Source: Chromera velia (lineage: Eukaryota; Sar; Chromeraceae). Taken from it: DNA of 20,792 nt. Positions 3,017 to 18,581 of the stretch are shown piece after piece; within the stretch, counting starts at the first letter, position 1; the number at the start of each line of letters is the position of its first letter. A program made the position numbers and the translations under genes. Under the pieces are notes generated by a model, which made no database searches, was not told the origin of the DNA, and saw nothing but the letters and a program-made list of their open reading frames with translations. The stretch is from assembly GCA_018398765.1 (NCBI GenBank), contig JAHBMJ010004573.1, positions 37,327 through 58,118 on the forward strand, read 5' to 3'.

Positions 3017-3176
3017 AGGGCATCTCAGTATATATTAAACATGCACACCCGTGAACGCCACCTACAGAAATACGTGTACACAAACAGAAAGTCAGTCAAA
3101 TCACCAGAATACATATAAAAGCATGCATGCAAACATAACCTGTATCTTTAATTTACATCAGAATAATACATGAAAG

Positions 3177-3915
3177 CAGGAAGACTGAAATTGGGAAAGC
3201 AATCAGACGGGCAGGAAGGCCAAAATCGGGAAGGCAATCAGGCGGGCAGGAAGGCCAAAATTGGAAGGCAGTCAGGCCGCCAAGAAGACCGAAATTGGAA
3301 GGCAGGCATGTGAGCAGAAAGAATGAACTCTGGAAGGCAGTCAGATACACAAGAAGGCCAAACTTGGGAAGACAGTCAGGCCTGGCTCAGCAGGAAGAAC
3401 AAAATTGAGAAGGCCATCGGGCAAGCAGGATGACCGAAATTAGGAGGCGTTAGGAAGAAAGTTGGGTGGGAAGGAAGGCCGAAATAGGGAAGGTAATCAA
3501 GCAGGTAGGAAAGCCGAAATTGGGAAAGCAACCGGGCAGGCAGGAAGGCCGAAATTGCAAAGTCAGTCAGGCAGACAGAAAGGCCGAAATTTGGAAAGCA
3601 TTGAGGTAGACAGAAAGACCGAAATTTAGAGGGTAGTCAGGCAGGCAAGAAGGCCAAAATCGGAAAGCAGTCAGCATGGCAAGAATATAAAACTCTGGAA
3701 GACAGTCAAGCAGGCAAGAAGGCTGAAATTGGAAAGGCCATCGGGCAGGCAGGAAAACCGGAATTGGGAGCGCGGCGAAAGCCGAAATTAGGAAGGCAAT
3801 AAAGTGGGCGGAAAAGCCGAAATTGGAAAGGCATTTAGCCAGATAGAAAGGCCAAAAGTTAGAGGGCAGTCAAGCAGGCAAGAAGGGCAAAATTTCGGAG
3901 GCAGTCAGGCTGGTA
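3177..3915. repeat. Degenerate ~35-bp tandem array (about 21 units)
   Basis: Successive units of 34-36 bp follow a pattern like GAAATTGGGAAGGCAGTCAG and then GCAGGCAGGAAGGCC. The units differ by substitutions and small indels, so no long frame persists through the array. Short minus-strand frames with periodic Leu-Pro-Phe content are by-products of the repeat. The array lies inside the element bounded by the 47-bp inverted repeats. Confidence 0.85.
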
Positions 3916-4281
3916 AAAAAAAACACAGGCTCGGCACGTATGGGCACTACTGACTTTCGCAGTCTGAAGACTGCAGCCGTAACGAAGATGCAAAGACCTA
4001 CCTCTAGAGGAGTTGAAGAAAGCCTGGGACCTAGAACAAACATCTTCCAAATGAGACTAACGACCTGCAAAGAGCAGAGAACGGGGGAAGGGGTGAGCTA
4101 CACACGCAAAGGGAGACGGCAGTTTTTTGCCTTGCCAATGGCAGACCGGTCAGTCGCTCAGCAACCACAATGGCCAGGTTACAACCATACAAAAACACTT
4201 ACAGACATCGTACAAAGCCTTCTGCATGCACCAAGAAGGCTCATCTCTGCAAACAAGATTTTTTCAATTCCCTCACTGGGA

Positions 4282-4521
4282 GGGGGGGGTGGAACCTCTC
4301 GCAGGGGTACGAAACGACCGAATTTCGTATCCCTGCTGGAAGGGGGGGGTCCGACCTGCTCTGCAGGTTTGCGCCAAAAATGTGTCTAGGAAACATTGTG
4401 TCTAGGAGTATTTCCTAGACACATTTTGGACGCAAACCTGTAGAGCAGGTCGGACCCCCCCCTTCCAGCAGGGGTACGAAATTCGGTCGTTTCGTACCCC
4501 TGCGAGAGGGTCCACCCCCCC
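4282..4521. repeat. Large nested palindrome / foldback element
   Basis: The left arm (4282-4393) is complementary to the right arm (4411-4521) at about 95% of positions, with a spacer of about 17 nt. Each arm contains its own smaller hairpin: 4301-4314 pairs with 4323-4336 (one mismatch), and 4468-4481 pairs perfectly with 4490-4503, with 8-nt loops. A further short stem, ACCTGC-TCT-GCAGGT, lies in the left arm. Each arm also has two runs of 7-8 G (C on the right arm). It may be a foldback or MITE-type insertion, or a structured RNA template. No target duplication is evident. Confidence 0.85.
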
Positions 4522-6123
4522 TTGTTGCTGGTGGAACAACACAAAACGAACTGACCTGATTGAGTGATCCAAACCAGTTCGGCAACCCTTTTAGTTGTTG
4601 TACAACTCCTTTGCACTGAGGCAACCACTCCCACGAGCAACCAGAGGTGTTCAGCCAACACAGATACCGGAGGGGGACGAAACTCGAGAATCTGTAACCC
4701 CTCCAAAAATGAGGTTCTGGAACAACAAGCTGAACACGATTTCGTCATTGTTAAGCCTTCCAATACAATCCAATGAAACGTTTGATAACGAGATTTTATG
4801 GATAGAGGCCCATTCTGTTGACCTGACTTTCTGACTGGAGGAGAACTTTCTGAAGACCTGACTAAGAATTTTTCAGATCGGCATTTTGATGGGTCAGCGT
4901 GCAGCCGGGAAGTGCTTTTTGGCCTTGGTAGCCGGCCGGGCTCTGGCTTGCAACGCGTAGCTTGCCTTCCGGGGCTATCACATGGTTGGCTAATCTAAAA
5001 TCGGCTCCCAAAATCGGCTTTCCGTCGAATGTTTCAAGTTGATCAGAGCACGACCTAGTGCCACCTCTCTCCCATCACACAGACTTGCTCTCCAGCGATG
5101 AAAGTAGGCTTTATCAAAAGCTCAGAGGATTGGCTTCTTTGCGTTTTCTTGGGTTTATGACATTCACTCTACTGGTTGCCCTGAGAGGGCAATTTCGATC
5201 TTCCATTACAAAGGGCACGGCCCGTCTCCATGCAAAGAGGCCTATGAAATTGCCCCAGTAAAGCTTCCATTGAATCCCTAAGGCTTCCATGCGTGCGCTC
5301 TAACTAGCTCTAGATGAGGAGCTGGAAAGGCTTTTTGGATGAGGGGGCCAGCTCTGGGTGGCCAGAAGGTGAGCCACTTTATGAATTTTTGCATATCTGT
5401 GCTGCAGGTTAGACTGAGCCTTTCTCGGAGGACCGTTTGTCGGTGCTCGGGTTTCATAAGAAAGCATTACGGCTGGTAATCTCGGGTGACCTGAAGTTGT
5501 GAGAGTGAGACGCAGCTCTTGTTTGCATAAAATTTTGGAGGTGGGGCTCCTGGGTGGACTGAGACCCAGTGGCCAGTGCCGGGCCTCACAAAAAAAAAAT
5601 AAGAACGCTATGATGGCCGGTCGTGGGCAAGGCCCTCTGGCTAGAGGCCATAGATCGATCAGGCTTTCAGAAGCTAAGCATTTACCTCTTGCACGGTCAT
5701 AGTGCTCAACATTTGTTTGGTTGAACTGCTTTCTGTGGGTGTTAAATCGGCAGATCTGTTTGCGGACATTCATTCTTACCTTTCATGGGGGTTACCCGCT
5801 GTGTACTCCCTCCTTACATCAGTATGCGGATTCAACGTATTCCATTAGAAGTAAAAGTTGGCTTGTTTGTGCATTATATTGCGCATTATCACATGCCTGC
5901 AGAGTCTGTAATCACTCTCCGACATATCAAGATACTATAATTCTTTCACCTCTGAGTCACTGACGTCCAACAATTTCCAACATACACACTACAAACCTAT
6001 TAAACCTTATCTTTAAAAGTTGTTCATACTTTTATGCAGGGAAGAAACAATAAATAGAATCATTCTAAATGCTTTAAAGACTTAGTTTTTTATATAAAAT
6101 TTAGTATAATATATAGAACATTA
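4522..6123. other. Interior of the inverted-repeat element, no gene supported
   Basis: A 157-residue minus-strand open frame (5300-5773) and a 70-residue plus-strand frame (4564-4776) exist, but neither shows a transposase motif or any other family signature. A short perfect hairpin, TTGCCCT-GAG-AGGGCAA, lies at 5176-5192. From about 6000 the sequence becomes strongly AT-rich up to the right inverted repeat. Confidence 0.4.
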
Positions 6124-6170
6124 AAAGTCACTTTCTAGTATAAAAGTTTCAATTGTCAGTACAGTCAGTT
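6124..6170 (-). repeat. Right terminal inverted repeat (47 bp)
   Basis: Inverted copy of 2623-2669 at 46 of 47 positions, followed directly by TTGG. Confidence 0.85.
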
Positions 6171-7492: not shown

Positions 7493-8253
7493 AGGACCCA
7501 TCAGGACTTGTAGCTGATGTAGTCGCTGGACATGTTGGCATAAAGGCGTGACTTGCAAGGAGTGAGTCACTGACAGTATCACAGTGACCGCCTTCTCCCT
7601 CTTCTCCGTCTCCAGATGAAGAAGAGATACGAAGAGTTTCCAGCCAGCCTGGCAGCTAGCAAAGCATAAGTCACCAAGCAGGATGCAAGCGAGGCACTCC
7701 ATTCAGCTAACACGGGATATAAGGAGTCTCTGACACTCCCTTTCACAGTCTTTTGACTGTGCCCGCAGCGTTTTGGAAAGCAAAGAACGAGACGGAGAGA
7801 GACTGATCATCAAGTTGGCATCGATCTGGCACGTACCTGACTCCTCTCCAGAAGGACCTGGTGTGTTTTCGAGTTTCAGACCGGGGTCCCTCGAGCTGAG
7901 TGATCACTATATCATGTCACGAACTAGTCATGACACTCAAGAGGCTAAGTTAGAAGGCGGCGAAAAGACTCTGTCCTAAACTAATTGACTCCAGAAGGTT
8001 GAGAAGGTCTACAGGTAAAGATTATCAAGAAACTTCAAGATTCTCCAGTCATGCAATCTCATCCAATCTAATTCCATCTCACTCCAGAACAGTCGTTTTC
8101 ATCCCCGCACTTGATAGAAAATCAAATGTAACATGCAAACAGACTGAATTCATGCGACAGGACGAACTTAAGCTACAGGACAGCAGCTACAAGATAACAT
8201 CCATGTCTAAGAGCCAATTCATCTGCAAGGTAGTCACAGCGCATGAGGACCAA
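7493..8253 (+). pseudogene. Degenerate internal (gag-region) sequence of the copia-type element
   Basis: This is the leader and presumed gag region downstream of the primer binding site. An ATG at 7616-7618 opens MKKRYEEFPASLAASKA but is closed by TAA within 20 codons. Other partial frames follow, the longest ending near 8313. The last 339 bp (7915-8253) are the second copy of the repeat at 1592-1930. I see no nucleocapsid knuckle, protease, integrase or reverse transcriptase motif. After 8253 the similarity ends and AT-rich sequence begins. This is a broken remnant; calling it gag rests only on its position. Confidence 0.5.
7915..8253 (+). repeat. Retroelement fragment, copy 2
   Basis: Matches 1592-1930 over 339 bp without indels. 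Of the 27 differences I counted, 24 are transitions. In this copy the frame shared by both runs without a stop to about 8313. Confidence 0.8.
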
Positions 8254-8509
8254 GTCCAGATTGAAGTAATAATTAATAAAAAAAAACTCGGATTTAGAAT
8301 AAAAAAAGTTTAATTAAATTACGGTCTATAATCACGACCAGCCACTACAATTAAAATCATTCAACACTAATCTGAAAGCTTTAAATTCCTTCAACATACA
8401 TCTTTTTTTTAAAACTTAATTTTAAAAAAAATATTTTAATTATGTAATTTATTTTATGACCATTGATTCATTTTACTAAAGAAACGATATTCAAGGAAAG
8501 TTTGTGGTA
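8254..8509. other. AT-rich tract between retroelement and the large gene
   Basis: Strongly AT-rich, with several A and T runs, in otherwise GC-rich surroundings. Read on the minus strand, it is the region just after the stop codon of the large gene and contains AATAAA-like sequence (near 8446-8456), so it may supply the 3' UTR and polyadenylation signal. It begins exactly where similarity to the retroelement copy ends. Confidence 0.4.
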
Positions 8510-9511
8510 TTACCGCAGTTTCGTTTCGAATTGAATTTTTTCTGTTGTTTTCCAGGACCTTCTGCCGGACCTCCCAGCAATGACCCTTCCGGGGGGTCTC
8601 GCGCTGTCGGTTGCATGATTCCGATCGGCCTGCTCGTCTGCCACTACTTCAGATCCCGAATGGGAGGTGTTGTTAGAGAAGTTGGAGAGACTAGAGGTAG
8701 AATCCTCTGTCTCTGTCTTGGCCTGATGGGTTTCAGACCCCTTCTCCGTCTCCCCCCTTTCGCCCCGTGGCGGCAGACTGATTGAGTCGGCAGCAGCGTG
8801 GTCGGAGTCTGCAGTGTCCTCTGAAAAAGAATTGGGGACGGGTCTCTGCGGCGAAGGGACCTGTTGGAATTCTCCTCCCCTTCCTTCTTCTGAGCTCGCT
8901 CCTTCACCTTCTGGAAGACTGTTTGGGGAATCGGGGGGATGATGCTCCTCCTCTGCCTCCGTTCCTCCCTCACTCCCCGACGACTCATGCGAGGGAGGGG
9001 GAGGGGACGAGGATGAACGAGGGAGGGGATCAGGATCTTCTTCTTCAACAGACGAACCTTCGGTGGGAGAGCGCCCATTGACTTTGACTCTCTGCTCAGT
9101 CAGTGACCCGGCCCTCCGCAAATACGGGGAAGGGGGTGACTGTGCCGTCTCCTGCCCATCTTTCTGCTGCGTCTCTTCGTCCGCACCGTCAGTGTCCTGA
9201 CACTCCTGCTCTCTTTCTTCCTTCTGCTTCTGTGGTTCAGCTGGGGGGCCTCTGACGAGAATGCGTCTGGCCTCCTCAGAGAGGTGGAGCACCCTGAGGG
9301 CCCAACTGAGAGCTCGGGCCTGAGACAGGACAAGCGAGTCGAGACGGCCCACAAGAACACCCACTGCGGGGAAGAGCATCTTGCGCAAACGAAGTTCAAG
9401 TGCCTCGAGGGCATTTGCATCCTCTCCTCCCTGCTCTCCTCGCTCTCTGCTGCCTTTTTCTGAAAGGACGGAGAAGACAGACGCGGCGGCACAGAGAACC
9501 GACAGGAGCTC
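8510..9511 (-). CDS. Exon 9 (terminal) of the giant OPR-like gene
   Basis: 1,002 nt including TAA at 8512-8510. The acceptor is CACTGCAG before GAGCTCCTG; the upstream intron is 421 bp. The first third is helical (LLSVLCAAASVFSVL, then LRLRKMLFPAVGVLVGRL and ARALSWALRVLHL). The remainder is an acidic Ser/Pro/Glu-rich tail without domain features. The last residues (KIQFETKLR) are near an AT-rich boundary. A donor-like GCG|GTAATA overlaps the stop, so a further downstream exon cannot be excluded. Confidence 0.78.
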   Translation of the reverse strand, partial: ELLSVLCAAASVFSVLSEKGSRERGEQGGEDANALEALELRLRKMLFPAVGVLVGRLDSLVLSQARALSWALRVLHLSEEARRILVRGPPAEPQKQKEEREQECQDTDGADEETQQKDGQETAQSPPSPYLRRAGSLTEQRVKVNGRSPTEGSSVEEEDPDPLPRSSSSPPPPSHESSGSEGGTEAEEEHHPPDSPNSLPEGEGASSEEGRGGEFQQVPSPQRPVPNSFSEDTADSDHAAADSISLPPRGERGETEKGSETHQAKTETEDSTSSLSNFSNNTSHSGSEVVADEQADRNHATDSARPPGRVIAGRSGRRSWKTTEKIQFETKLR

Positions 9512-12500
9512 CTGCAGTGATGTGATGGTTAGACGGACAGACAGAGCAATCAGAGAAACACGACACTCGTGCGAGAAGAGTCTTCACAGGCTGTGGCAGA
9601 GAGAGGGGACGAGACGAGCAGGGAGGGATACAGGGATGAGGGGAACCCAGAAGAATTATAGAAGCGACGGAACCAGCAATTTGTTTGTATTTTTTTTTTT
9701 TCGAATTTTGTGGCACGATATTTTTCTGCGCGATGATCAAGGCGCTCCAAGTGCACGCTCTGACAGAGGGATGAGGAAAGGAATCGAAGGAAACGACTGA
9801 GATGCACACACAGGCCTGTCACAAAGCATAAGCTGAAGAGATCACAAAGAGAAAGGGCTGGTCAGGAAGGAAGTCAACCCCCACCAACGCCTTTTTTCTC
9901 TCTTTTGTCACATTTCCCCACCACAGACTGACCTGAGTGCTCCAGGAAGAGAAGGCCCTTTCCGACTGGTTTGCCACCAGAACGACCACACAACGAAGCA
10001 CAGACCCTGTCAACTCACGACCAGAGGCAGATTGCAAAGGATTCTCTTGACCTCTATCTCCCCCCTCTTGTACAAGCATCTTTCTCCTGCCCGCTCTCCT
10101 CGCAGACTTTTCAGGAACCTCCGGGACGAATACGGGAATGTCAACAGAGGGGTCCTCAAACCTTTGCGCAGTCTCCAAGGCTGTCTGCCTGTCTTGACGT
10201 TGGCTCAAGCGGGAAACGTCAGGAGGGGGATATGGGAGACCCATGAGGTTATACAAAATCTGGTCTCCTCCTTCTCTCGTGCTTTCCTCACTGCCGTGTG
10301 TCTGCTCATCCCCTCCCTGCACCGTCCCTTTCCCTTCAACGGACACATCGGGGGATGTGCAGGAAGCAAAGCAGACCGAGAGGAGCCGAACGAGAGACCA
10401 GAGGAGGGAGGAGAGCTGCCAACCAGAGAAGTAATTCCTCCGGTGCGCCAACGTGAATCGCTCTTCCAGTGCCTCCAGCAAGGGCCCAGGCGGCACATCC
10501 CGGGGGGCTCTTGACACAAAGCGGAAGAGGTCGACAACCCCGTTCGCGCTGAACTCTGGCAACCTGACGTAAGACAAGAGAAGACAAGGGAGGAGAGGAC
10601 AGGAGAGAAGAGGAGCGGGGTTACACGAGCAAAGTAAAAAAAGTACACACTCATAGAGACGTATAGACAAGACAGACAGACTAACAGACAGACGGACAGA
10701 GGGGCACACCAATCACTTGTTCTCAGTGAGAACAAGTGGCTTGGGGGAGAAAAAGAGACCGCATCAGCACAAGGACTGGTGCGAGAAACACCTAGACGCT
10801 GGTGAACTTCTCGAGGGATTTCCTTCGTCATCAAACTTTCACCAGAGGCCACTCACTCACTCACTCACCTTCGAGCTGCTCCCCTGATGAGGGAAAGCAG
10901 AAGGGACCGCACCTCTCGGTCCTCTGGGGGGCGCTGGAAGGTGAAGGCGCGCAACAGAGCTATGAGGGTCTGTAGGCAGGCAGGAGTTTAGGAGGGAAGG
11001 AAGAACACAATCTGTAAGTCGAGGAGCAGGTGAGCAAATCAATTAGTAAGCATTCAGCCAGGCAGCCAGCAAGTCGATGAGACAGTCATTAAGTTGCGAG
11101 AGCTTCGAAGAGAAGAGCATAAAAACAGAAAGAGAGAAACAAATAGAAGAAAGTTGTGAGATCAAGGAAGAGTGGGGGCTTTCTCCTCCATTATGAGTCT
11201 CGAACTCTCGGACAGGCACCGGGACCTGGACCAAAAGGGAGAATACAGAATGGCAGGGAATCACATACACAGATGTCAAGACGAATTGAAGCGTTTGACT
11301 GACATCGAGAGGCAGAGAAGAGAGACGATCCCGTGACGGCTTCTTGGCTTGTTCCTTGGCCCTTTCCGCAGTCTCGTACTCTTGCACAAAGGCTGCAATG
11401 TCGTTCAGGTCTTTCTCATCTTCTCTTTCCCTCTCTCTCACACTGCCAAATTCTTCTGCTTCTTCCAACAAAGGAGTGCGGCCCTCGACCCCTCCCTCCA
11501 CTTTTTCTTCCTTCTCCTTTTCTTCCCTCTCCAACTGTACCAGACTGCCACTTTCCAACGATTGCTCCTCAACTCCTTCCGCTTCCATGCCAGAAGAATC
11601 AGCTCTCGGTGAAGCATCCATCTCCTTGGGGTCTCTCTCGCCCTCTACCGTTTCTCCTTTTTTTTCGGTCCCTGCAGGCTCTGAGGACGCATCCTGAGGA
11701 GACACGTGTGGCGGGAATGAAGGCTCCTCCACGTCCTCTCTACTCCCGCCCCTCTGATACCGTTCCACTTCTTTCAGCAGCATGTCAGTGTACTGCGAAT
11801 ACGAATGGGTCGTTTCAGATGTGCCCCCCCCTCTCTCAAGGGCTGCAGACGTTGCCCCTCCTTCATCAAACGATTCTTTTTTGTCATCTTCTGTCTCCGC
11901 ACCTTCCCCCGCATTTTCCTCAGCCTTTTCAGTTTCATTTATGAGACCCTCCCTGCCTTCATCGAGAGGGTTCTGAAGACTGAGAGCCTTCATGAGAGTC
12001 TCGACGGGGGAGATCACGCTCTGCTGTGTGCCATTGTTTGACGTCTCGCTGCCAACACCCCACAAGATGTGGGGACTCAGAGCAGCAGCAGCGGAGGCAA
12101 ACGCACTGGCAGTCTGCGCGTCTTCCGGTACGTCCTTCCGCCCACTCTCTCTGTTTGGATGATCGGCTGTTGCGGTAAGGCTAGATGACGGGGACAGCGC
12201 AAGAATAATGTCTGCGAGTTGCGTGTTGGTCATGTCACCCCACGGTGTCGGTCTTTTCTTTCTTGTCTCCATATCGGCTCGCTCATTCTGCGCGTGGTCC
12301 CTCCCTTCCCCCCACCTCTCTGGCTGCTTTTCTAGGCCCAAAAGATTGTCGCGTGATGCTGCCGAGCTAAACCTGCTGACAGACCGTCGCTGGTGCTCCA
12401 TGAGGATTGCAGCCGTCTCCTCTGCCAGAGGGTGGTTGTCGATCCCTGCCCTTGTCAGAGAGGAGACAAGGGAGACCAGATGCTGCAGAGAACAAAGCGA

Positions 12501-15500
12501 GAAAGGGAGAAAGGAGGAGGTGCAGAGACGATGACGGACTTTACAACGAAAAGACAGCGAGATAAAAGGGAACAGGGGAAGAAGGGAGGATGGAAGCAAT
12601 AGCAGCAACAGAATGGACACGCATACACAGAGAGAGGGGGGGAGAGAGGCATAGAGGGACAGAGAGAGGAGGAGATAGAAAGATGCTTGATTTTTTTAGC
12701 GTCTGACTGACTGACGTTCAAAGAGAAGCTGCTGAGATGCGAGAGAGCCCAATCTGAGAGACGTATGAGGAAGGCCCTACACACGTCACATTCTGACTTC
12801 CATGACGAAGCTGTTCGTTGTCTGTCTGCATCAGTCATCATCTTCTGCTTCTCTCTGAAGCACAACAGATCAGAGGCTTCCGAGGAGACAGCACAAGCGG
12901 TCCCAAATGAGGCCGCTAGCTTCACCGCAAGGTCAGGCGTCAATCTGCTTCCCTCACTCTCGTCCAAAGGGAGTTTCTCCTCCCCTCTTCTCTTTTCCAT
13001 TCCTTTGCGGGAGGCCTCTGCGCCTGGAGAGATAAACCGAATCGTCAAGTCCTGAACAAACGGAGGGGGGAGAGAGGAAACAACAAAGAGATGTTCACAG
13101 GTCAGCAGCGGAAGGGTGGGGCACATTGCTAAATGCTCAAAATGATTGAGTGCGCACCAACTCAACCTCAACGCACAGATGACACAGAGCAGAAAAACAG
13201 GCAGACAAAGGAACAGAAAAAGGGCGAGGCAGATAACGAGGGAGAGCGAGGCGTTGCGACATCGAGGCAGAACCGGACGTAAAGACGGTTTGTCCTTTTA
13301 AAAATCATCTGCCGTCCTGTTTTTTGCCCGACGTACCTCAGCAGCAGCGTTGAAGAATGCAACAACAATGCCTTGCCACTCAGTCAACGCTCTGTGCTCG
13401 TCTTCGCGTCTTCGCCCCGCATTCCTATCCCCTCTTCCCTTATCATGCATTCCGCCCCCCTGTTCCTCGTTTCTCCCAAGCTGCCTTTCATGTTTCTGCG
13501 CGAGTCTATGCCTCAACACTTCAGATGCAGAGGCACCTGCGTTGACCAGTGACTCGATCTGTGACAACGACGACAGGGAGAGTTGCGTTGTCGCAATTTT
13601 GAGTACAGACGCACTCCCTCCCAGAAGATTCATTTCCAGACGGCTGAGCTCTCTCCCCAGGTCAAGCCCTCCTCGCCTGTCTTCCTCAGACTTTGAGACA
13701 CCACTCTCATCCCCAGCAGGAGAACCATCACCCCTGTGCACAACTGCACGACGAGAGTCCATGCACAGGCGGGCCATCGACCCCAGCGCCTTTGCAGATA
13801 CCCCCAAGGTCGTCAGGCTGAGTCTCTTCGCGTACCTCGGCTCTGCAGGGGCAGGAGCTGTGACCCCCCGGCGGTCCGCGATCTCGGCCCGAGGCCGGGG
13901 CGGCATCCCAAAAAACCTGCGGCGGTAGTTCCGCAAATCTGAAGCTGCGTATGAGGCTGCATGCAAGGCTGGCATGAGGCATTCCTCTCTTCCTTTCTTT
14001 TGGGACAGCCTCAGAGAGGCTTGAGGGAATCTGGAGAGAGAAGTCTCGAGAGCCCAGAGGGTGTTAGCGAGGTCACTTCCCCACAAAGGTGTCTGCCTCC
14101 AGAGAACGACTGCACACAAACAGAAAGAAGCATTCATTTGTTTGTTTGGAAGGTGAAGTCTCAGGAAGAAATTTCGTCTAACTACATGCACCAAACAAAA
14201 TAGGGATGCCCATACGCACCGAAGAGGTTCTCCCTCTAGAGGACAAGCGACCGCACCACAGGTACCGTCGAGGATCGGAAGAGAGAAGGGGCACGAGTGG
14301 AGCGGGAGACTTCATTTTTCTCTGGAGTTTCAGAACAAAAAGACGAAAGCAAAGACACAACAGAGCAAAAATGGAGAAATTCACAACGCGTCTCTCTGGC
14401 TCTGGTCGGAAGTGTCAAAGTACGCCTGTCTGTCTGAGAGAGGGAGGAGGGGATGTAATGGGACAGAAACGACGTGTTTACTTAAAAAGAAGACTCTGGG
14501 AGGAAACATCTCACAGACTGACTTACCGTCTGCAATCGCTGCATTCAATTCAAGGATGCTTTTTCTCAAAGGGTCCTCGTCCCCCCACGAATCTTCGTCT
14601 TCGCTTCTGTCTCCCTCAGGCCTCATCAGTCCTCCCACTCCTGTCGCTCCTCTCTGGGCTCCTCCTGTCAACACTCCCTTTCCTCTTCCAAGTGAAAGGC
14701 CAATTCTTGTTGCCGCCCACATCAAATTGGAAGTCTCTTCAACTGCAGTCACTGCCTCTAGTCTCTCTGACACCACTCCCACCACAGAAGACCCTCTTCT
14801 TCCCTCATCTTCTTCTGAACAAGACGCATCAACCACATCATCATCTCCAACCAATGCCCACCCTCTGAGAGCCAAAACCAGACCCTCGATCTCCCCCTCC
14901 AATTCCCGTACCCAGTCAGAGGGAAAAGACGCTACCACCGTGATCACTAAGGATGCATCTTTGCAACCAATGGTTGCAGGAAGACCCTTTCTACGGGGAG
15001 ACTGCCTGGGCACCCGGTCTTCGTTCAGACACTGGGTCACATGAAGGATCAAACGTGAGGCGAGGAACTTTAAATTCGGGATAATCTCGGGAGTGCACAA
15101 TTCAACTGCACTCCGCACGGGAACACGAAGGAAGTTTGCTAGGGCATTCAAAAGCTCCTTCGAGCCCCTTACACCAAGCCGACGTACAAATCCCTCATTC
15201 GCACCCACTCCCCTCGATTCTTCTTCTCTCACTCGTTCAGACAACGCAGAAAAGAAAAAGAGGGCCCCTGCAAGTAATGGGGGTTGAAGCGAGGAGACCC
15301 TCTCGCCCCGAGAGAGCACAATGGAGTTTTTGAGGAATGCGGTCAAACTACTCACTGCCTCTTCGCAGTCTGTGTCCGACCTCGGCACAAGCTCAACAAA
15401 AGCTGACGCCATCTGCACGACAGGGCGCGTCTGCAGAAAGGGGGCATACTCAGCCCCTCGGCGCATGATCAGTCCAAGCGCTTGGCGTAGTTGCCATCTG

Positions 15501-18500
15501 AATTCGTGGGGGGACAATGTCGACCCCAACTTTTCTGATCGTCTGAAGTCCCCATGCCCCCACTTGCAAAAAATCATGGCACAGGCCCTTGCAGAAAATC
15601 CCAAGGGCATGTTCCCAGATTTCTCCAACGCCCCTCCAAAGAGGAACACGTTGAGAAGACGCAGGAACAGATTTGGGGCCTCATCAACAAAGGTCCCAAA
15701 CGAACCGAGGGAGTGAAGAAGCGAACTCAAAGTCCGAGGGCCCCAGCCCATTTTGGCAGAAAGTCGTTCGTTTTTCTTTTTTTCCTTCGAAGAGAACGGT
15801 GTGTTGGAATCAGGACGCAGGAGCTCTTCTGAGTGTTCGAGCAACAGGTCCAGTCGTCTGAGGGTTTTCATAACGATCACAGAAGGAGAGGGCCCGTACG
15901 GATTGGAAGACGCACGAGTTCTCGTCTTGGGGGAGAACTTCGCGTAGGCAGAGAGAATCGTCGAGACTGTTCTCACACCCGCAAAGTCAATCCTGGTGGT
16001 CCCAGGCAGCCGGGGTCCTGGGCCAAAGGGCGAGAGGTAGGTGAGGGGAATCATCTGAGAGAATAGACTGGCCGGAGCGAGGTCCGTCTGCAGACAAGAA
16101 ACGAAAAAAAAAAAAAGCGTCTCTGTGCCTGTTGAATGCTTGCCCATCTGTATTTCTGTCCGGCTGAAATGGAAGAAGAAAAAAAACAAAACAAACAAGC
16201 AAGCAAGCAAGCATGAAAGAAGAAAGGAATAAAACGTCGAAGGAATGAAGGAAGGAGGAGCGAGCGAACGAAAGAGAGACAGAGGGGGGGGGGGAACACC
16301 CACCAAAGGCCTCTTTCATGAAACCAAAACTTATTTCACTGGTGTACCACAAAGGATGAACCGACTGACGTCTACCAGCACAGTGAGGGCTTTTGGGAAG
16401 AGAGCCTCTGCGGCGTTGCTCGACAGTCTCCTGTGTACTGCCCAAATCGTTCTGCCTGCAAATTCGCTGGTCAGGAGGCCCGACCGCCCCCCAAGAATTA
16501 GGGCAAAAAGCCAAGACTCACAGTCGACTACCCTGGCAACATTCATTGGAAGATTCATGAAGTGCGATAGAACTAGATCAACCTCGTCTTTGAGCCATGA
16601 AGGCAGACGACGAGCGGAGGCCTGCATAGGGGAAACTTGCTCCTCTTCTCCACCCTGGCTCCCGCTCTCGTTTTCCTCATCTTCTTCATCGAAAGAAGAG
16701 GTCTTGACTGTTTTTCTTTTCTCGATGCGGACGAGAATGTGAGCTATGTGTATGCGAATTTTCTCGCTCACGTTGAGGAATCCTTTCAGGCCGTCGGAGC
16801 GCCCCGCCACATACTGCGACGGAACACCCCCCTCCCCCTCCGCACTTTGAGCATCCGATGAACCCTCCAATTCCCTCTGCTCTCCTTTTTCTGTTTGGTC
16901 TTCATGTCCATCTTGAGTCTTCTCCGAGGAAGAACTCGCAGGAGATGGGTGTGGAGGAAACACCGGAAGGGGTCTGTTGGCCTGAGCCTCTTCAAGAGAT
17001 GCAAGGTCCCTCACGGCTGCTGCCCGCAAGCGGGGCAGGATTAGTTTAGAGACAAGGAGGAAGGTCTCGTCGGCAGGCATCGCCCCTTCCACCTTCCGTC
17101 GCATGCGGCCCTTTCTCCTGACCTCCGCCACCAGACTCTCGAACACTCCTGCTCGAAGACCCTTTAGGGCCTTTGAGCTGCTAGCCCCTGGCTCCTCCTC
17201 TGCCATGTCCTCCCCCCTACCCTCGACCGCAACGTTCTCCCCTCGGCCTTCTTCCAAAAGCAGTTCTCGAATAACCCTTACCATGGGACGCCGCTCGAAC
17301 TCGGGCTCATACAGGAGTGAGAGACAAGTCGGTCTACGGAGCCACACCAGGAGTCTCGTGAAAATCAAACCAAGCAAGTGGAGAAGACGGGGGCTGTACT
17401 TGTCCTTTTCTATCGACTCTCCTATCCTCAGTGTCTGGCTTGTTAGAAGAACCGTCCACCTTTCGTGGTCCTTCTCGGACGCACTCAAAGACACAAAACA
17501 ACAAATCACATAAAGCAACAATACCTCCAGACCAGGACAATCGCCACTCGCACTGGTGACTGTTCGAGGCAACCATTTTTTTTCTTCCCGTTTGGCTTCA
17601 AAGAGGGATAGTATAGTCTCGACAATTGAGTCTGCTCTAGACTCCCAAAAAGACGAAATTCGCCTCGAACGAAACGAAGAGAGAATATGGTCTGGCCTTC
17701 CCGAGAGGGCGAAGTAACGCCACAAGACGACAACAGACAAAGTCCGATACCGTGCTCCCGTGTTAACCCGTTTCTTTTCGGATTCGAAGAAAGCCAGGAT
17801 GCCCTCCTCCGTCTCCACCCCTGACACCTGTTCCATCGTTTTCTTCAGGTACACATCGCATTCATCAGGGGATTCTTGAACATCCTGCCCCACCTTGATT
17901 CCAACCTTCTGCAAAAGAAGACGCGGCATCTCCCTCAATCCCCGCCCACCCATCCGCGGGTCCCCCCCCCCCNNNNNNNNNNNNNNNNNNNNNNNNNNNN
18001 NNNNNNNNNNNNNNNNNNNNNNNNNNNNNNNNNNNNNNNNNNNNNNNNNNNNNNNNNNNNNNNNNNNNNNNNNNNNNNNNNNNNNNNNNNNNNNNNNNNN
18101 NNNNNNNNNNNNNNNNNNNNNNNNNNNNNNNNNNNNNNNNNNNNNNNNNNNNNNNNNNNNNNNNNNNNNNNNNNNNNNNNNNNNNNNNNNNNNNNNNNNN
18201 NNNNNNNNNNNNNNNNNNNNNNNNNNNNNNNNNNNNNNNNNNNNNNNNNNNNNNNNNNNNNNNNNNNNNNNNNNNNNNNNNNNNNNNNNNNNCCCCCCCC
18301 AACTCAAAACCCGAACTCGACTCCCCGACTCCCTCCTCATCCATCCTCATAGTCCCCCACGACTTTCCCGACTCCCCGCGCACGCGGGAGACGGGACCTA
18401 CCCGCCCTATCCTGTTGGAACGGTGCCATTCCCCGGTTCCTGAAGAGGAGTGCACAAACGAATGGACGGTGGAGGCGAGCCCAGCCACCGTCAGTGTTGC

Positions 18501-18581
18501 AAGAAGGGCGAACCTCCATCTACTGCCGCCGGCCCCAACCGACGGACATGACGGCATAAGCTGACATTTGCCCGACGGCAT
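8510..18581 (-). CDS. Giant OPR/heptatricopeptide-like protein, probably plastid-targeted (9 exons)
   Basis: Nine exons join with consistent phases; exons 2-9 give 2,394 residues, plus up to 96 in exon 1, which is interrupted by a gap. The N terminus has a signal peptide (hydrophobic residues about 24-39) followed by Phe42 and a basic, Ser-rich stretch, as in bipartite leaders for complex plastids. The body contains scattered helical motifs typical of OPR/FASTK-type repeats: VSTILSAYAKF and TLSSLLHSLGSF (exon 3), SNLMWAATRIGL (exon 3), LANTLWAL (exon 4), LIALLRAF (exon 7) and LSSLLWSLVRL (exon 8). Such proteins bind organellar RNA and act in its processing, stability or translation. Acidic, Ser-rich disordered segments break up the repeats, notably in exons 2, 6 and 9. 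No RAP domain is visible. The gene model is strong; the RNA-binding role is an inference from repeat resemblance. Confidence 0.75.
9933..10563 (-). CDS. Exon 8 of the giant OPR-like gene
   Basis: 631 nt; the first G completes AGG (Arg) from exon 7. The acceptor is TTACGTCAG and the donor is CAG|GTCAGT, phase 0. The upstream intron is 305 bp. It begins LPEFSANGVVDLFRFVSRAP and continues to WQLSSLLWSLVRLL (about 10421-10380), two typical helices of an OPR-like repeat, followed by a polar linker and another helix at its end. Confidence 0.82.
10851..10868 (-). repeat. TGAG tetranucleotide repeat at the exon 7 donor site
   Basis: Read on the minus strand, the intron starts GTGAGTGAGTGAGTGAGT. The same six-base donor GTGAGT therefore recurs every four bases. 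Only the first register keeps the frame into exon 8. Confidence 0.85.
10869..10969 (-). CDS. Exon 7 of the giant OPR-like gene (micro-exon)
   Basis: 101 nt, entering in phase 0 after GCCTACAG and leaving in phase 2 at AAG|GTGAGT. It encodes a pure helical hairpin containing TLIALLRAFTFQRP and EVRSLLLSLIRGAAR. Only this frame joins both neighbours without a stop. The upstream intron is 301 bp. The donor is the first unit of a TGAG-type tetranucleotide repeat. Confidence 0.78.
11271..12482 (-). CDS. Exon 6 of the giant OPR-like gene
   Basis: 1,212 nt (404 codons), phase 0 at both ends. The acceptor TGTTCTCTGCAG follows a long pyrimidine tract; the upstream intron is 233 bp. The exon contains helices such as NTQLADIILALSP and a long Glu/Lys/Ser-rich segment (about 11980-11380) likely to be disordered or coiled. 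The donor is placed at TCT|GTGTAT. A second GT two codons later is also in phase, so the end could be six bases further on. Confidence 0.75.
12716..13051 (-). CDS. Exon 5 of the giant OPR-like gene
   Basis: 336 nt (112 codons), phase 0 at both ends. The acceptor is TTTGTTCAG before GACTTG and the upstream intron is 285 bp. The donor AAC|GTCAGT sits at the start of a GTCA tetranucleotide repeat. It encodes LTIRFISPGA, a charged loop and further helices. Confidence 0.78.
13337..14109 (-). CDS. Exon 4 of the giant OPR-like gene
   Basis: 773 nt; entering bases TC complete the codon GTC begun by exon 3. The acceptor is GTGTGCAG and the donor is GAG|GTACGT. The upstream intron is 417 bp. The exon opens with WGSDLANTLWALETSLSRF, the most typical OPR-like helix in the protein. 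Further helical segments include GVSAKALGSMARLCMDSR. A basic, Gly-rich loop (about 13400-13480) separates the last helix. Confidence 0.85.
14527..16087 (-). CDS. Exon 3 of the giant OPR-like gene
   Basis: 1,561 nt, entering in phase 0 after CTTGTCTGCAG and leaving in phase 1 at GACG|GTAAGTC. The upstream intron is 252 bp. Repeat-like helices are clearest here: GVRTVSTILSAYAKF near 15980-15940, TLSSLLHSLGSFGTF near 15735-15690, and SNLMWAATRIGL near 14735-14695. These resemble the second helix of OPR repeats, where a conserved L-W-A-x-A-K-L pattern is usual. Confidence 0.8.
16340..17908 (-). CDS. Exon 2 of the giant OPR-like gene
   Basis: 1,569 nt (523 codons), phase 0 at both ends. The acceptor TCTTCTTTTGCAG precedes AAG GTT GGA. 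The end is placed at CCA|GTGAAA (GT at 16339-16338), because the alternative donor TGTG|GTACAC four codons earlier would break the frame into exon 3. The protein is mostly alpha-helical in appearance, with Leu-rich stretches (LLHLLGLIFTRLLVWL) and two acidic low-complexity parts, one around 17180-17240 and one around 16640-16700. Confidence 0.75.
17973..18292. other. Assembly gap (320 N) flanked by C runs
   Basis: The gap is bordered by 11 C on the left and 8 C on the right. It probably lies wholly or partly in the first intron of the giant gene, because a good acceptor (TCTTCTTTTGCAG at 17921-17909, minus strand) lies just downstream. The N count may not be the real length. Confidence 0.9.
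18293..18581 (-). CDS. Exon 1 of the giant OPR-like gene (bipartite targeting leader), 3' end in gap
   Basis: The first ATG is at 18581-18579; a second in-frame ATG at 18557 would shorten the N-region by eight residues. The segment SRWRFALLATLTVAGLASTV is a clear signal-peptide core. Cleavage near HS|F would leave Phe at +1, followed by a Ser/Arg-rich stretch and then an acidic part (MRMDEEGVGE). The exon's true end is unknown. It may run into the N gap, or it may end at CGG|GTAGGT (18402), which is in the right phase for exon 2. Confidence 0.7.

Follow-up and report, generated by a model that had tools for sequence, protein, structure and literature searches.

The minus strand of this Chromera velia locus carries a series of very long open stretches, which raises the question of what they encode, and whether the product is, as an earlier note on this DNA had proposed, a very large OPR-like plastid protein made unusual by its want of a RAP domain. 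The window analysed here is the whole stretch of 20,792 nucleotides from contig JAHBMJ010004573.1 (positions 37,327 to 58,118 of the forward strand), and all coordinates below are counted from its first letter. The locus is probably, though far from surely, a nuclear gene, belonging to an alga whose complex plastid is of red origin, and its product would be a plastid RNA factor: a very large and divergent alpha-solenoid protein of OPR/HPR type.

The gene and its exons

Between positions 8500 and 17972 the longest stop-to-stop stretches on the minus strand, intron parts counted in, run to 644, 550 and 546 codons. In 300 second-order Markov simulations of this region the longest open stretch reached at most 435 codons, against the 644 observed, and the seven longest together at most 1,660, against 3,011. 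Because the open stretches lie so far above chance, and because nine exons join in consistent phase, the gene is real. It starts at 18581 and ends at 8510, the limits that the earlier note had correctly given. Where that note had counted eight coding exons, nine were found; they join without phase conflict, as it had stated (exon end phases 0, 0, 1, 0, 0, 0, 2, 0), into a protein of 2,431 amino acids, close to its estimate of about 2,400.

All nine exons lie on the minus strand. Exon 1 (18402-18581) encodes the leader, residues 1-60, with an alternative start at Met9 (18557), and is followed by exon 2 (16376-17908; residues 61-571), predicted to be helical with a disorder-like stretch at about residues 351-500, and by exon 3 (14527-16087; residues 572-1091, with codon 1092 split), predicted to be all-helical. 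Exon 4 (13337-14109) specifies residues 1092-1349; exon 5 (12716-13051), with its donor at 12715, residues 1350-1461; and exon 6 (11304-12482) residues 1462-1854, which from about position 12065 onwards are acidic and disorder-like. The short exon 7 (10869-10969) provides residues 1855-1887 and ends within codon 1888, exon 8 (9933-10563) extends to residue 2098, and exon 9 (8510-9511) contains residues 2099-2431 and the stop codon, with a Ser/Glu-rich tail from about position 9238. Every one of the eight introns is of GT-AG type with a pyrimidine-rich acceptor, and their lengths range from 233 to 493 nt. The G+C content is 55.5% in the coding sequence and 49.4% in the introns; for reference transcripts PMC6668581 gives 53.0% in C. 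velia and 59.6% in Vitrella.

Searches for domains, folds and relatives

No Pfam family was found on the 2,431-residue protein at E<=10, under filters that discard most weak matches, and no Pfam model of the 34-35-residue PPR or TPR repeats was matched at that threshold. Members of the FASTK family bear FAST_1 and FAST_2 domains plus a RAP domain; membership of this family was rejected, since the protein matches no Pfam family at all. Searches of the PDB by sequence returned no match for the whole protein, three for exon 3 (best E=0.38), one for exon 8 (E=1.9) and one for the start of exon 2 (E=1.5), none of them a relative. Viral contigs queried with an OPR consensus or with exon 3, and bacterial and archaeal genomes queried with exon 3, gave pattern matches among which no relative was confirmed, such single-sequence queries being able to detect close relatives only.

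Structure prediction of exon 3, which had been proposed as a check, gave an all-helical AlphaFold model from the single sequence, but at a low-confidence mean pLDDT of 44.5 and without a Foldseek match at E<=0.001. The same is true of exon 2, all-helical at a mean pLDDT of 48.9. Designed helical repeats stand at the top of the Foldseek list for exon 3, with many ARM and TPR chains, while that for exon 2 contains many 14-3-3 and TPR-like chains, none of these being significant. The second entry for exon 2 is the Toxoplasma mitoribosome chain 9hqv_Yb (E=0.21), which is also matched weakly by an OPR profile (E=0.033). The Foldseek matches of both exons are hints only. Weak models and lists of this kind, together with the very hydrophobic 15-mers that start at residues 189 and 2100, would suit a different reading, in which the protein is a large helical, perhaps membrane-bound scaffold that resembles OPR proteins by chance or through convergence of amphipathic helices. 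This seems improbable in the light of the shuffle controls described below. On charge-hydropathy analysis the acidic residues 1601-1850 and 2201-2400, plus shorter stretches, are disorder-like, and the last 242 residues include 36 Ser and 35 Glu, so that the Ser/Glu-rich tail reported earlier is indeed present.

Profiles built from real OPR/HPR repeats

An OPR/heptatricopeptide profile search had also been proposed. The profiles used here were built solely from real repeats in PDB search alignments: those of the algal mitoribosomal proteins mL115, mL116 and mL123, of RESC6, of ASA2, and of two RAP-domain mitoribosome chains of entries 9g6k and 9i05. The sources of these entries are in part our assumption; we take 9g6k, whose chain L2 is named mL162, to be the Toxoplasma mitoribosome. 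An OPR consensus composed after the protein had been read, against which it scores 23.4 and 21.9 bits, was set aside as possibly biased, since it shares words with the protein; it nonetheless determined which PDB chains were examined first. Scores were compared with those of local shuffles, global shuffles, and class-preserving shuffles in which the hydrophobic pattern is kept.

A profile drawn at first from just three proteins gave no significant result: the protein scored 0.7 bits, while shuffles reached as much as 8.2. With RESC6 and ASA2 added (profile it2) the score was 10.8 bits, equalled by none of 200 local, none of 200 global and one of 300 class shuffles; in a larger run none of 1000 local and one of 1000 class shuffles scored as high. 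Addition of the first RAP-domain chain (it3) gave 17.3 bits, and the 26-row profile it4 gave 16.5 bits, and in each case every one of 1000 local and 1000 class shuffles fell below the protein. An OPR-type repeat signal is therefore present. The best single domain is less distinctive, being matched by 5 (it2), 2 (it3) and 8 (it4) of 1000 class shuffles, and a MAFFT-aligned profile of 12 sequences (A2) gave 13.0 bits, which exceeds the local shuffle maximum of 7.7 yet is surpassed by the best class shuffle at 14.3. That no shuffle in 1000 with the hydrophobic pattern preserved attains the it3 or it4 score argues against a scaffold whose likeness to OPR proteins would lie in its amphipathic helices alone. 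Of the OPR/FASTK-type motifs that had been claimed, the OPR part is thus weakly upheld by the profiles made from real repeats, but the FASTK part finds no Pfam family behind it.

At E<=10 the 12-sequence profile matches 36 PDB entries, its own training chains among them, and 34 of the 36 bear the names of mitoribosomal or RAP-domain chains, of RESC subunits, of ASA2 or of FASTKD4; because its matches fall so largely under these names, the profile is specific. The other two matches are to a receptor (E 0.9 and 1.2). Reaching FASTKD4 with the same profile is the point of contact with the FASTK family, to which the present protein shows no further likeness in Pfam. Many of the PDB chains found by OPR profiles belong to large complexes (mitoribosomal mL115, mL116, mL123 and mL162, the RAP-domain chains, and the ATP synthase subunit ASA2), and this gives some weight to the view that the OPR/HPR solenoid is a structural part of the plastid ribosome or of another plastid complex and not a sequence-specific RNA factor. 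A structural role such as that of ASA2 and of the mitoribosomal OPR-type chains would be the main rival to the RNA-factor reading, both roles being assigned by analogy. It is unlikely, if still to be reckoned with: no PDB chain matches this protein by sequence, and its long disordered inserts would be out of place in a compact ribosomal subunit.

Repeat units and half-repeats

When the protein was scanned with an ungapped 37-residue profile from the 26 real OPR/HPR repeat rows, three full units of at least 10 bits were found, all on the minus strand. Unit 1 (14030-14557; residues 1082-1118, 12.7 bits) is split by intron 3 (14526-14110), unit 2 (12438-12781; residues 1440-1476, 19.3 bits) by intron 5 (12715-12483), and unit 3 (10497-10912; residues 1874-1910, 13.8 bits) by intron 7 (10868-10564). 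A count of three at 6 bits or more was reached by none of 200 local and none of 200 class shuffles; at 4 bits, three units were also seen in two of 200 class shuffles. In a set of 27 E. coli proteins totalling 12,513 aa, with BcsC, presumably a TPR protein, among them, there was no full unit of at least 6 bits, which again tells against a chance product of helical sequence. Since a RAP-domain chain kept out of the training rows reaches 29.8 and 16.5 bits, the three units lie at the degenerate end. Taken together, these three units, each of 10 bits or more, and HMM scores of 17.3 and 16.5 bits, set against a three-protein profile that is not significant, indicate OPR/HPR units weakly.

The helix-B half of the repeat is more frequent. 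Of its 12 matches of at least 4 bits, 11 fall in the mature part, three of these within full units, and the other falls in the leader; eight matches have at least 6 bits. Neither count was reached by any of 500 local or 500 class shuffles; the E. coli set, although five-fold larger, has six and two matches at the same thresholds. In exon 3 helix-B-like matches start at residues 605, 684, 836 and 1016, and unit 3 is followed by a further match at residues 1931-1950. At higher thresholds the count does not stand out, being equalled by 8 of 500 class shuffles (8 bits) and by 119 of 500 (10 bits). The reversed protein contains five helix-B matches of at least 4 bits, the best at 11.1, which is a point in favour of the scaffold reading, as is the small number of full units and the distance between them.

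From the start of one full unit to that of the next there are 358 and 434 residues, so that the full units are not in tandem, and this fits the earlier description of motifs spread thinly amid acidic, disordered segments. This wide spacing of recognisable units is what stays unusual about the protein as one of OPR type. All three units straddle exon junctions (3/4, 5/6 and 7/8) and are cut at differing positions within the unit. As only 11.7% of the protein's 37-residue stretches span any junction, three such cases are unlikely by chance, and the three joins are therefore supported, with the caution that for join 5/6 the exon-5 donor had been selected partly for repeat continuity. That donor, at 12715, was picked by phase, splice consensus and repeat continuity, while joins 3/4 and 7/8 were set by splice consensus and phase. 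Alternative exon-5 donors at 12925, 12889 and 12784 are possible, but with these the it3 score falls from 17.3 to 4.2-8.2 bits.

The RAP domain and the OPR family

The absence of a RAP domain, as claimed earlier, was confirmed. Pfam gives no family on the protein at E<=10 and no RAP in six other ORFs of the window at E<=1, and when all six frames of the window were scanned for the published RAP core in relaxed form, the best hit agreed at 9 of 11 positions and lay outside the gene. A hidden RAP domain was rejected on these results. It does not follow that the protein is unusual for want of RAP, since RAP is in the minority among OPR proteins: a survey of 43 Archaeplastida proteomes reports it for 163 of its 1067 OPR candidates (PMC13126933), and in chromerids the overlap between RAP and HPR/OPR proteins is put at about 10-19% (PMC8190603). 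Disordered, charge-biased regions are also described as common to many OPR candidates (PMC13126933). With so low a share of RAP and such frequent disorder in these surveys, an OPR protein that lacks RAP and is partly disordered is the common case, and this one looks like a large, divergent member of a known family, not something new in kind. Among the open-licence literature matches listed, no chromerid plastid OPR protein of this kind is described.

HPR proteins are counted within the OPR family by PMC13126933, and according to that paper and PMC12691811 the HPR/OPR motifs are hard to recognise and domain databases do not describe them. The HPR proteins of Apicomplexa, represented by the RAP-domain chains L4 and LJ of 9g6k, have the same 37-residue two-helix unit, and it was addition of the L4 rows that raised the score of this protein from 10.8 to 17.3 bits. 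In L4 and LJ, however, the repeats run in tandem as printed, whereas here the units are far apart and a plastid-type leader precedes them. Green-algal OPR proteins (TBC2, TDA1 and the mitoribosomal mL115) are likewise organelle proteins with degenerate helical repeats, and they too are mostly without RAP and often have disordered regions, as PMC13126933 describes them. The motif PPPEW, said in PMC8635915 to occur in most OPR proteins, is absent from the present protein, and the complex-plastid leader is a further difference. PPPEW is not a strict criterion, because the OPR protein CCS2 has LWALAR in its place (PMC8635915) and HPR is described as having no fixed motif (PMC12691811). With RAP proteins and the OPR-RAP proteins of the NCL family the helical region of OPR/HPR type is shared, and the RAP domain is what is missing here.

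The leader and the assembly gap

The plastid-type leader that had been claimed stands in its form, but its join to the rest of the protein crosses a gap. A hydrophobic 15-mer at residues 25-39 (mean 1.83, rank 14 among the 2,417 15-mers of the protein) is followed by Phe42 and then by a basic stretch rich in Ser, Thr, His and Arg that extends to residue 60 (three Arg, two His and one acidic residue). PMC6668581 reports that plastid proteins of C. velia strongly conserve a Phe immediately behind the point of signal cleavage, and that those of Vitrella do so less. The form of the leader is consistent with that rule and would suit a plastid address. More hydrophobic 15-mers start at residues 189 (2.60), 2100 (2.41), 236 and 711 (1.89). 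The most hydrophobic of all, VLLLYVICCFVSLSA (residues 189-203, about positions 17524-17480, mean 2.60), may represent a membrane segment or else a buried helix.

Intron 1 (18401-17909) contains an assembly gap of 320 N (17973-18292) with C runs at both edges, perhaps a collapsed simple repeat. Because of this gap the join of exon 1 to exon 2 is unproven and the leader's link to the body of the protein is a prediction; an extra exon could lie in the gap. The same 320 N leave room for the protein, still of OPR type, to act in the mitochondrion or another compartment, if exon 1 came from another transcript or if the gap held another exon, and in malaria parasites and Toxoplasma most RAP proteins have a predicted mitochondrial location (15 of 24 and 17, respectively, as given in PMC8190603). 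Such a location is a minor possibility, given that a GT donor and a strong acceptor join the two exons in matching phase and that the Phe-led leader fits the C. velia rule (PMC6668581).

Surroundings of the gene

No further gene was recognised in the 8.5 kb that follow the 3' end of this one when six ORFs were compared with Pfam and the window with tRNA and Rfam families, none of the latter being found anywhere in the window. The median intergenic distance is given as 989 bp in Chromera and 92 bp in Vitrella (PMC4501334). Together with the Phe-led leader and the G+C content, so long a flank with no recognised gene fits Chromera better than Vitrella. This flank contains a degenerate direct repeat array with a 35-nt period (3145-3944), made up of families of 10 and 13 overlapping copies of at least 60% identity; an inverted repeat with 111-nt arms, 95% complementary and 17 nt apart (4283-4393 and 4411-4521); and an inverted repeat pair with 50-nt arms at 96% (2623-2672 and 6121-6170). 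A dispersed 300-nt direct repeat (1592-1891 and 7915-8214), its copies 93% identical and 6.3 kb apart, is possibly a mobile-element remnant. It overlaps a 119-codon ORF at 7954-8313 on the plus strand, which has a sub-threshold match to Pfam DUF5729 (E=0.0015; 19.2 bits, the cut-off being 27.4).

Proposed role

That the gene is transcribed, and that its protein is imported into the plastid, binds RNA and has an RNA target there, we infer. If the preferred reading of a divergent OPR/HPR-type plastid RNA factor is right, the signal peptide would direct the protein into the secretory route, and the Phe-led transit stretch then exposed would take it into the plastid. There the helical blocks, by analogy with OPR/HPR proteins, may form pieces of solenoid that grip single-stranded plastid RNA, the paired-helix repeats holding one or a few plastid RNAs (protecting them, trimming them or aiding their translation) or a piece of rRNA. 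The acidic, disordered insertions that part the helical blocks would keep the solenoid pieces apart or recruit partners. A more particular version, in which a giant RAP-less plastid OPR protein carries single units far apart on a disordered chain and so tethers several RNA segments or partners at once, is a long shot. Were it true, the spaced units would tether, for example, a plastid transcript or rRNA fragments, and would not read one RNA by a continuous solenoid.

A profile made from real repeats here recognises a gene that goes unnoticed in sequence searches of Pfam and the PDB. Its product is a candidate for a plastid RNA factor, in an alga that is probably close to the malaria parasites, in contrast to those parasites themselves, most of whose RAP proteins are predicted to be mitochondrial, as PMC8190603 has it.
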